The notes under the pieces were generated by a model that had not been told where the DNA came from, searched no databases, and saw nothing but the letters and a program-made list of their open reading frames with translations. A stretch of 38,541 nt of DNA from Chloroflexota bacterium. GTDB lineage: Bacteria > Chloroflexota > Dehalococcoidia > UBA2247 > RBG-13-53-26. Positions 4,385-23,230 of the stretch are shown one piece after another. The stretch lies in contig JAPLHP010000035.1 in the NCBI GenBank assembly GCA_026389585.1, positions 1-38,541 of the forward strand. The letters run 5' to 3'. The translations under genes and the position numbers were made by a program. How positions within the stretch are numbered: the first letter of the stretch is position 1; each line of letters begins with the position of its first letter.

Positions 4385-4413
4385 TTGACTGTGATGATAA
4401 GCCTTGTTTTTAT
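4385..4413 (+). promoter_or_regulatory. Possible sigma70 promoter for the thiF-type gene
   Basis: TTGACT (4385-4390) and TTTTAT (4408-4413) are separated by 17 bp, about 50 bp before the start codon at 4464. The -35 box is good (5/6) and the -10 box is weak (4/6). The 252-bp gap after the M20 gene supports a new transcription unit here. Confidence 0.35.
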
Positions 4414-4463
4414 CCGTAGATTCCATTAGAAGACCACACCATAGCAGAGAAGGCAGCGTATAT

Positions 4464-5231
4464 ATGCGTAAGAAGCCAGCACAGAGCGTGCTCACCAGGG
4501 AAGATCTCGAAAGATACGACCGGCAGATAAGATACGATGGGTTCGGCGAGGAAGGGCAAGAGAAGCTGAAGACTTCTCATGTAATCGTAGCCGGTGCCGG
4601 AGGATTGGGATGTCCAGCCTCAACTTACCTGGCCTGCGCTGGTGTAGGGCGCATCACTATCATAGATGACGGAATCGTGGATCTCTCTAATCTCAATCGG
4701 CAGATACTTCACTGGCAAGAGGATATCGGTCAGAAGAAGGTAGCCTCAGCCACAGCCAAGCTGGCCAGGCTGAACCCGTCCGTACAGATTCTTCCCAAGG
4801 CAACCAGAATCACCAGGAGAAATGCCACACGCCTGATAAAAGGGGCCAATGTGGTGATAGACGCAATGGACAATTTCGAGACCAGGGCCATATTGAACCA
4901 GGCATGTGTCTCTGAAGGAATCCCTTTCATACACGGCGGAGTGTGGGGATTGTGCGGCCAGGTTACCACTATCATCCCCGGAGAGACACCCTGCCTTGAG
5001 TGCATCTATCCCGAGAAACCGGTGGATCAGGGGGTGTTCCCCGTCTTTGGTGTCACCCCGGGTTTAATAGCCATGATTCAGGCCGTCGAGGCTATCAAGA
5101 TCATTGCCGGTTTTGGCCGCTTGCTCGCAGGGCAGATGCTCTACATCAATGAAGCAAACATGGATTTCTGCCTCCGCGAGTTGATCAAGAACCCAAACTG
5201 TCCGGTCTGCGGAGGCATGAAGGGAGGCTGA
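4464..5231 (+). CDS. ThiF/MoeB/HesA-family E1-like adenylyltransferase
   Basis: A 255-residue E1-like enzyme that adenylates the C-terminal glycine of a ubiquitin-like sulfur carrier. The family start ERYDRQIRY is followed by the ATP-binding G-x-G-G-L-G-C (residues 44-50), D-L-S-N-L-N-R-Q (73-80) and two zinc CxxC pairs (C177/C180 and C246/C249). By eye, the cysteine that forms a persulfide in ThiF (and its MoeB counterpart) is replaced near residue 186, in the stretch PVDQGVFPVFG, so direct sulfur relay by this protein is unlikely. The in-frame TTG at 4404 would add a 20-residue tail not found in the family; I prefer the ATG at 4464. The next gene encodes its probable MoaD/ThiS-like partner, 3-15 bases downstream. 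The pathway (molybdopterin, thiamine, cysteine or tungsten cofactor) is not shown by the neighbours. Confidence 0.88.
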   Translation: MRKKPAQSVLTREDLERYDRQIRYDGFGEEGQEKLKTSHVIVAGAGGLGCPASTYLACAGVGRITIIDDGIVDLSNLNRQILHWQEDIGQKKVASATAKLARLNPSVQILPKATRITRRNATRLIKGANVVIDAMDNFETRAILNQACVSEGIPFIHGGVWGLCGQVTTIIPGETPCLECIYPEKPVDQGVFPVFGVTPGLIAMIQAVEAIKIIAGFGRLLAGQMLYINEANMDFCLRELIKNPNCPVCGGMKGG

Positions 5232-5234
5232 ACA

Positions 5235-5528
5235 CTGAGAATCCGGTTGAAGTCATTCTTTCATCTGGATGTATCCAAAGCCTTCGGCAGCGACCACATA
5301 GAGCTCGCAGATGATAGGGCCACACTGAGAACCGTTTTACAGGAAGTAATGCGAAAAGGCAATGGGAAAATCGAGGTCATTGACCCTGCAACCGGGAAGA
5401 TTGATGTCGATTATTTTGTCCTGTTGAACAGGCGTGAATCCCAGACTCTTCCTCAGGGACTGGGGACAGAACTTCACGAGGGCGATGAGGTAGCTATAGG
5501 CATGATGCATTATTGGGGAGGCGGCTAG
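5235..5528 (+). CDS. MoaD/ThiS-like ubiquitin-fold sulfur carrier
   Basis: A small beta-grasp protein of about 97 residues that ends in W-G-G-G, matching the C-terminal Gly-Gly that an E1-like enzyme adenylates and that becomes a thiocarboxylate. LHEGDEVAI near the end is the typical MoaD strand. The start is unusual. TTG at 5247 has no properly spaced ribosome site and would remove part of strand 1. CTG at 5235 lies 7 bases after GGGAGG (5222-5227) and restores the usual first strand (xRIRLKSFF). I therefore annotate from 5235, with 5247 as the alternative. It is the natural partner of the E1-like protein just upstream, and may be translationally coupled to it. Confidence 0.8.
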   Translation: MRIRLKSFFHLDVSKAFGSDHIELADDRATLRTVLQEVMRKGNGKIEVIDPATGKIDVDYFVLLNRRESQTLPQGLGTELHEGDEVAIGMMHYWGGG

Positions 5529-5536
5529 CCAACGAG

Positions 5537-21677: not shown

Positions 21678-22652
21678 ATGGACTATAAAGATTACTACAA
21701 GATTATGGGCGTGGATAAGAAGGCCACAGCCAAAGAAATAAAGCAAGTTTATCGCAAGCTGGCACGTAAGTATCATCCCGATATCAACCCGGGGAACAAA
21801 GAGGCCGAGGCGAAGTTCAAGGAAATCAACGAGGCCAATGAGGTGCTGGGTGACGAGGGGAAACGGAAGAAATACGACGAGCTAGGCGCGAACTGGAAAC
21901 ACTATGAGCAGTGGCAGCAGGCAGGTGGTGAGGCCAGCGGCCAACCCTTCGACTGGCGCCAATACGGGTTTGCCCCCGGATCAGGCAAGACCAGTAGCTA
22001 TCAGGCCAGAACTATGACAGAGGAAGATTTCTCGAGCTTCTTCTACAACTTCTTCGGTGGTGAGGAACCTGACATGGGGACCAGACAGCGCTTCCGGACT
22101 GCCTCCCGATCTCGCAAAGGTCAGGACTTTGAGCAGCCGATAGATATAAGCCTGGAGGAAGCCTTCCACGGCACAAATAGAGTTCTCCAGATGGAGGATG
22201 CGAGCGGCAGAGTCCGTCGTCTGGAGGCTAAGATCCCCGCCGGAGTACAAGACGGCTCCAGAGTGCGGCTGGCAGGGCAGGGAGGGTCGGGCATGGGCGG
22301 AGGGCCGGCTGGTGATTTGTACCTCGTAGTGCATATTTCCCATCACCATCTCTTTGAGCAAAAGGAGGGCAACCTCTATCTCAAACTGGATATCCCTCTA
22401 ACCACTGCTGTCCTGGGGGGAGAAGTCGATGTACCCACTCCCAACGGCAGAGTGATGTTAAAAGTTCCTCCCGAAACACAGAATGGCCGGGTATTTCGCT
22501 TGAGAGGGAAAGGGATGCCCAGGCTGGAGACGCCCCAGCAACACGGTGATTTATTTGCCGAGGTCAAGGTGATTCTGCCAGAGCGACTTTCAGAGCAAGA
22601 GCGAAAGCTGTTCGAAGAATTCTCCAGACTGCGCCCGGCATCCGGCAAGTAA
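21678..22652 (+). CDS. DnaJ-class co-chaperone, CbpA-like
   Basis: A 324-residue Hsp40. A complete J domain (1-70; H-P-D in KYHPDINP) stimulates a DnaK partner. A Gly/Phe-containing linker (~70-150) follows, then the two C-terminal substrate-binding domains (PIDISLEEAFHGT ... LRLAGQG; LDIPLTTAVLGGEVDVPTPNG), ending with the usual dimer-forming region. The zinc-finger domain of classical DnaJ is absent, which makes it CbpA-like. GGAG lies before the ATG at 21678. A redox glutaredoxin-PDZ gene follows 56 bases downstream, which suggests a shared protein-quality role. Confidence 0.92.
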   Translation: MDYKDYYKIMGVDKKATAKEIKQVYRKLARKYHPDINPGNKEAEAKFKEINEANEVLGDEGKRKKYDELGANWKHYEQWQQAGGEASGQPFDWRQYGFAPGSGKTSSYQARTMTEEDFSSFFYNFFGGEEPDMGTRQRFRTASRSRKGQDFEQPIDISLEEAFHGTNRVLQMEDASGRVRRLEAKIPAGVQDGSRVRLAGQGGSGMGGGPAGDLYLVVHISHHHLFEQKEGNLYLKLDIPLTTAVLGGEVDVPTPNGRVMLKVPPETQNGRVFRLRGKGMPRLETPQQHGDLFAEVKVILPERLSEQERKLFEEFSRLRPASGK

Positions 22653-22708
22653 TTCACCAAGAACCAGGATATTCATACAAACCGCATCAAATCATCAAGG
22701 AGGGCAGA

Positions 22709-23230
22709 ATGAACGTTGTACTCTACATCACCCAGACCTGACCCTACTGTCACCAGGCGAGAGAGTTTCTTTCGCAAAAAGGAGTCAAGTTCACCGAGCA
22801 CGATGTATCCCTCGATAGGGCTGCTGCAAAAGAGATGATTGAGAAAACAGGGCAAAGAGGAGTTCCGGTGATCACGATAGATGACCAGGTGGTCATCGGC
22901 TTCGACCGCACTCGTCTGGAGCAACTGCTGGCCGGGAAAGGCGACGGTCAGCACCTCTCCCTCGGGCTACAGGCAGCTGATGCCAGCAAGATAGCTCAAA
23001 AGGTGGGAGCTGTACCTATATTCGGAGCCTTCGTAGGCACGGTGAAGCCCGGCTCGGCGGGGGAGAGGGCAGGGCTGCAAAAGGGTGACGTGATCACCGA
23101 AATCAACCTGCGTCGCATCAATAATGTCGATGACCTGGAGAAGGCAGTGTCCGGACTATCACCAGGCAGCCGGATATCAGTTGTCTTTCTCAGAGGGGAG
23201 AAGGAACTCCACGCCGAAACTGTGCTCTGA
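22709..23230 (+). CDS. Predicted selenocysteine glutaredoxin (UPYC) fused to a PDZ domain
   Basis: A 173-residue fusion read through an in-frame TGA at 22739-22741 (residue 11). AAGGAGG (22697-22703) lies 5 bases before the ATG. The start MNVVLYITQT-U-PYC is a YruB-like glutaredoxin: U11/C14 replace the CPYC redox pair, GVP (51-53) holds the cis-proline, and GFD (64-66) follows. Residues ~85-173 are a PDZ domain (GTVKPGSAGERAGLQKGDVI). The frame is open to TGA 23228-23230. TGA stands exactly at the catalytic cysteine, and a SECIS-like hairpin follows, so selenocysteine is the best reading. A simple gene call from the internal ATG at 22835 loses 42 residues and the active site. A pseudogene is possible but less likely, as the remainder is intact. 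Known selenoproteins include glutaredoxin-like UxxC forms; the PDZ fusion is not one I know. The selenocysteine machinery is outside the window. Confidence 0.85.
22739..22786 (+). promoter_or_regulatory. Putative bacterial SECIS element just after the in-frame TGA
   Basis: GCGAGAG (22757-22763) pairs with CUUUCGC (22769-22775; seven pairs, one G-U) around the loop AGUUU (22764-22768). The loop G at position 2 lies 23 nt after the TGA, within the 16-37 nt range given for bacterial SECIS elements. A lower stem may form between GACCCU (22740-22745) and AGG-A-GUC (22780-22786). SelB would bind such a hairpin to decode UGA as Sec. Confidence 0.55.

Follow-up and report, generated by a model that had tools for sequence, protein, structure and literature searches.

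A probable selenocysteine-containing glutaredoxin joined to a PDZ domain in Dehalococcoidia

In the window studied here (the whole analysed stretch of 38,541 nucleotides from a Chloroflexota bacterium) a glutaredoxin reading frame meets a TGA codon at its catalytic position, and this raises the question whether the triplet ends translation, marks a damaged gene or is decoded as selenocysteine, and what kind of enzyme would be made in the last case. A preliminary description of this DNA had proposed a selenocysteine glutaredoxin, and the gene structure it gave was borne out by direct reading: the Shine-Dalgarno sequence AAGGAGG, its spacing of five bases and the ATG at 22709 are all in place, and the frame does stay open past the TGA for 162 codons. 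It reads MNVVLYITQT-TGA-PYC..., where codon 11 is the TGA, and the 162 sense codons are followed by a TGA at 23228-23230. The features of the locus are the following.

21678-22652, forward strand: DnaJ/CbpA-type co-chaperone gene, whose stop codon lies 56 bases from the grx-pdz ATG
22697-22703, forward strand: Shine-Dalgarno sequence AAGGAGG, read directly, with the ATG five bases further on
22709-23230, forward strand: complete Grx-PDZ coding sequence, 173 residues with codon 11 taken as selenocysteine, final stop TGA
22709-22933, forward strand: glutaredoxin domain, residues about 1-75, with cis-Pro53 and GFD at 64-66
22739-22741, forward strand: in-frame TGA where the UPYC motif has its catalytic residue, Cys14 being intact as the resolving residue; TGA in 25/43 homologues, TGT/TGC in 18/43
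22757-22775, forward strand: candidate bacterial SECIS GCGAGAGA-GUU-UCUUUCGC, stem of eight pairs, GUU loop at 22765-22767
22961-23221, forward strand: PDZ domain of the DegP/DegQ type, residues about 85-171

When cysteine was put at codon 11, residues 3-62 matched the Pfam Glutaredoxin family (PF00462, 3.9e-20), which agrees with the earlier claim that the TGA occupies the place of the nucleophilic Cys of the CPYC motif. The second Cys, the cis-Pro and the GFD, previously described as intact, were recovered as Cys14, cis-Pro53 and residues 64-66, and the protein combines the thioredoxin fold, the C/UxxC at the N-terminus of helix 1, the cis-Pro and the GFD-like motif that define glutaredoxins. 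The identification as a selenocysteine glutaredoxin was supported, but the preliminary description had overlooked the wide distribution of the family and a C-terminal PDZ domain of the DegP/HtrA type (PF13180, 5.4e-13, residues 85-171); with it the product is better regarded as a putative 173-residue Grx-PDZ selenoprotein. In the predicted structure each domain was confident (mean pLDDT 88), but the arrangement of the two was not (pTM 0.54, with linker residues 77-81 below 50). The closest solved structure to the glutaredoxin domain was the dithiol cGrx1 (7c10; 50% identity, rmsd 0.8 A over 72 columns), presumably the selenoprotein glutaredoxin of Clostridium oremlandii, and both the structural and the sequence matches of the PDZ domain were best with PDZ1 of DegP/DegQ. 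No signal peptide was seen on inspection of the protein by eye. We assign a probability of about 0.93 to the reading that the gene encodes a cytosolic selenoprotein in which a UPYC glutaredoxin is joined to a PDZ domain. What is observed is the structure of the gene, the machinery, how the gene is conserved and the association of the hairpin with TGA; the actual insertion of selenocysteine and the catalysis are inferred. A separate observation concerns Ca. Chlorohelix allophototropha (NZ_CP128401.1; L228:1495-2040), where glutaredoxin and PDZ are two adjacent, separate genes, the former with a Cys codon; their adjacency is an independent link between the two halves.

According to the proposed mechanism SelB and tRNA-Sec would insert selenocysteine at the UGA of codon 11, to which the downstream hairpin would direct them. 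Dithiol glutaredoxin chemistry is standard for the family, and on this basis the selenol of Sec11 would attack a disulfide of the target protein, which the resolving Cys14 would then release. The PDZ domain would most likely bind the target by its C-terminus or by a hydrophobic stretch, a guess based on the domain type and the neighbours, and the enzyme might act together with DnaJ, ClpB, DnaK or Lon in repairing proteins that are oxidised or misfolded; the targets, the reductant and the chaperone partnership are speculative. The upstream DnaJ/CbpA-type gene is a possible operon partner of grx-pdz. Elsewhere the gene is neighboured by ClpB (G006, G007 and G003, that of G007 being assigned solely by its similarity to the ClpB of G006), DnaK (G102), Hsp20 and Lon (G178) or rubrerythrin (G016), but chaperone neighbours were found in some genomes only and otherwise the neighbours vary across the class; where present, such chaperone and stress genes suggest that the enzyme helps to repair proteins under stress. 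No match to GshB (glutathione synthetase) was found in the genome of the window, therefore a reductant other than glutathione is likely, and a search of the same genome for a canonical thioredoxin reductase gave none above the cut-off. Taken by itself, the chaperone-linked repair role, in which the PDZ domain would guide the enzyme to disulfides of cytosolic proteins damaged by stress and these would be reduced, draws partly on the neighbours and is put forward tentatively, its chance of being right being perhaps one in three or slightly less.

It is quite conceivable, at somewhat under even odds, that the protein does contain selenocysteine but that its PDZ domain helps to assemble or anchor it (on a membrane protease or some fixed partner) and recruits no damaged clients, the chaperone neighbours being incidental. 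Such a role would fit the differing neighbours across the class and the PDZ relatives, which are mostly periplasmic proteases, as well as the grx/pdz pair of Ca. Chlorohelix, which adjoins rhodanese, TusA, DsrE and trxB and suggests a function in sulfur transfer; the presence of DnaJ, ClpB, DnaK and Hsp20/Lon next to the gene in several genera argues against it.

Concerning the decoding of the UGA itself, the search for selA, selB, selC and selD that had been suggested earlier found all four in the genome of the window (G000; 1.93 Mb, 95% complete), which encodes SelA (1.3e-139), SelB (2.2e-107) and SelD (6.9e-117) and carries one tRNA-Sec with the anticodon TCA. Two further selenoproteins are probable in this genome, judging from their sequences: SelD itself (L018, G000:C65), which has an in-frame TGA in GAG-UGA-ASK, and the formate dehydrogenase FdhA (L227, G000:C84), with CARL-UGA-HSS. 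Both are well-known selenocysteine positions, and UGA is therefore very probably decoded as selenocysteine elsewhere in the organism. Readthrough by near-cognate tRNAs is generally known; nevertheless a route without selenocysteine, whether the UGA is read as Trp or Cys or the genome is recoded, is very improbable here, since the TGA alternates with Cys codons only, tRNA-Sec and SelB are present, and the same genome holds these two textbook sites. Ordinary genes of the window also end in TGA, as had been pointed out before, thus there is no overall change of the code and general recoding was rejected. The association between the type of gene and SelA/SelB was weak when counted per genome (24/25 for TGA versus 13/18 for Cys, p = 0.067), because many genomes with the Cys form also carry the selenocysteine machinery, presumably for other proteins. 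In one genome (G050, 94% complete) a TGA-type Grx-PDZ gene with the hairpin (L087) occurs together with no SelB and a SelA match of only 23 bits, for which missing contigs, contamination or an orphan gene may be responsible.

In order to collect homologues 393 Dehalococcoidia genomes were searched and the gene regions were read codon by codon, which yielded 43 full-length Grx-PDZ genes (among them L075, which runs into a contig end, and L087, which is a little shorter); a contig scan anchored on the Cys active-site motif did not return the TGA forms. Codon 11 was TGA in 25 of these genes, TGT or TGC in 18 and another stop in none, so the exchange of Cys and TGA for which an alignment of homologues had been proposed was found exactly at this position. 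Orthologues from three species of the same family (77, 73 and 65% identical) have TGA at the same codon, and because of these, and of the 25 among 43 class-wide homologues, neither chance nor a sequencing error explains it. Between the closest orthologues dN was well below dS in both the glutaredoxin and the PDZ parts (mostly 0.06-0.15, up to 0.24, several dS values being near saturation).

That the UGA is a real stop, with a product of 131 amino acids starting at 22835 and consisting of a truncated glutaredoxin remnant and the PDZ domain, is scarcely credible and was rejected. Gene finders do give this open reading frame, and the earlier warning that a conventional call would start there and lose the active site proved correct; in this way ordinary gene calling would truncate the Grx-PDZ gene. 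However, the codons before the TGA, and before 22835, are conserved as protein, the 18 Cys homologues have the same frame uninterrupted with Cys at codon 11, and a plain stop would leave the SECIS-like hairpin, confined to the TGA genes, without reason. The remaining idea, that the TGA arose by nonsense mutation and the glutaredoxin gene is in decay, has practically no probability left and is refuted by conservation: the stop does stand early in the frame and one genus (g85) holds a true-looking broken copy, but the same TGA recurs in 25 divergent genes, none of which has a further lesion (the unrelated disruptions that had been named as a sign of a pseudogene were absent from all 43), the alternative state is always Cys, purifying selection acts on both sides of the TGA, the hairpin is conserved and the genome has the full selenocysteine machinery. 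The copies in g85, from two species (L097:501-1018 and L098:501-1018), keep the TGA and the hairpin and have a common one-base frameshift in the GQM-GVPV stretch; their nonsynonymous codon differences exceed the synonymous ones, and they probably represent a decaying gene, with programmed frameshifting as the alternative.

Bacterial SECIS elements are marked by a small loop that contains a G (PMC1088965), and the candidate element found here is a stem-loop right after the UGA with a G in its small apical loop; the hairpin begins 15 nt and the loop 23 nt after the UGA. Across the TGA genes, 25 in number, 92% of the cells at the eight pairs are paired, four of the pairs show two-sided changes, and the covariation score was reached by 0 of 500 shuffles, slid registers being worse, whereas the corresponding columns of the 18 Cys genes are paired in 42% and the covariation signal is absent. 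The mean folding z was -2.14 for TGA versus -0.23 for Cys genes (Mann-Whitney p = 9e-7, an optimistic value as the sequences are related). With random synonymous codons as control it was -1.70 versus -0.19; the contrast survives, therefore the amino acids alone do not explain it. Gene by gene the same control was significant in only 11 of the 25 TGA genes, the window's own not being among them, and the window's hairpin taken alone is marginal (7 of 200 shuffles and 8% of synonymous variants fold as well); the argument is carried by the group result and the covariation. Rfam gave no match within the window. In L062, L066 and L075 the hairpin is displaced by one base. The selenocysteine reading is thus supported by the machinery, by the TGA/Cys exchange, by the conservation on both sides of the TGA and by a hairpin kept in the TGA genes.

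It had also been stated that UxxC glutaredoxin-like selenoproteins are known, and the literature agrees: the glutaredoxins of Clostridium/Alkaliphilus oremlandii (cGrx1), of Geobacter and of the Sargasso Sea are established examples (PMC13188914, PMC1794560, PMC1088965), and PMC13188914 cites Kim 2011 and Lee 2014 in this connection. The present gene resembles these in the putative selenocysteine as the nucleophile of a CPYC-type site, the retained second Cys and the UGA followed by a small hairpin; unlike these, which are listed as plain proteins with the PDZ unmentioned, it has a C-terminal PDZ fusion and belongs to a conserved Dehalococcoidia family. Among the NCBIfam models, NF041212 (Uxx_star) was reached with 68.5 against a cut-off of 66 when Cys was put at codon 11 (61.6, below the cut-off, in a six-frame search) and TIGR02196 (YruB-family glutaredoxin) with 90.3 against 88.55, and all 37 of 37 aligned members matched both with E values of 1e-8 or better. 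Since the glutaredoxin half lies narrowly above both cut-offs, an automated pipeline may already name the gene so; however, the two models span residues 3-74 only, without the PDZ domain that follows here. UXX-star families 1-3 were not reached (49.6/72, 44.5/100 and 45.7/97 bits versus cut-offs). NF041199, the Trx7/PDZ domain-containing (seleno)protein listed as CxxU (PMC13188914), likewise combines a thioredoxin-fold selenoprotein with a PDZ domain, but this model of 390 positions has another architecture, and membership was rejected with 27.4 bits against a cut-off of 300, from the PDZ part alone. The DegP/DegQ/HtrA proteases have in their PDZ1 the same type of PDZ, but the Grx-PDZ protein is without their protease domain. 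Our literature search, which mostly did not extend to subscription journals, found no description of a Grx-PDZ selenoprotein, no NCBIfam model for the fusion was found, and in the Dehalogenimonas literature found SelD and formate dehydrogenase were the only selenoproteins mentioned. With this gene the selenoproteome of bacteria would gain a Sec-glutaredoxin with PDZ architecture, and this in a class for which the papers found name SelD and formate dehydrogenase as selenoproteins.

On the maximum-likelihood tree, which was built without codon 11 and the hairpin columns, the Sec/Cys label changed at least 6 times, at least 3 of these changes being forced by well-supported branches. The 25 Sec and 18 Cys versions, with the hairpin in one set only, offer a natural experiment on the loss and gain of selenocysteine and SECIS. 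In family f51 the Sec members (L062, L066 and L075) stand within a mostly Cys branch, where L066 has UGYC and its Cys relatives CGYC; a gain of Sec from Cys with a newly formed SECIS is possible there. The broadest interpretation remains doubtful: an undescribed, ancient Dehalococcoidia family of selenocysteine-containing, PDZ-guided glutaredoxins which, with a cytosolic chaperone/protease network, would reduce disulfides in damaged proteins of anaerobes without glutathione, and which would have switched repeatedly between Sec and Cys, perhaps with Cys-to-Sec gains on newly built SECIS elements in f51. In five single-domain glutaredoxins (L099, L103, L104, L110 and L115) TGA stands at the same Cys and is accompanied by an almost identical hairpin, GCGAAAGA-GUA-UCUUUCGC; Dehalococcoidia therefore appear to have Sec glutaredoxins that lack the PDZ domain as well. 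Elsewhere in the window a ThiF/MoeB-like gene (4404-5530, forward strand; family names assigned by eye) has a TGA at 5229-5231, after which the frame continues for 98 codons, is MoaD-like and ends in GG; this extension probably represents a gene of its own that starts with a codon other than ATG.
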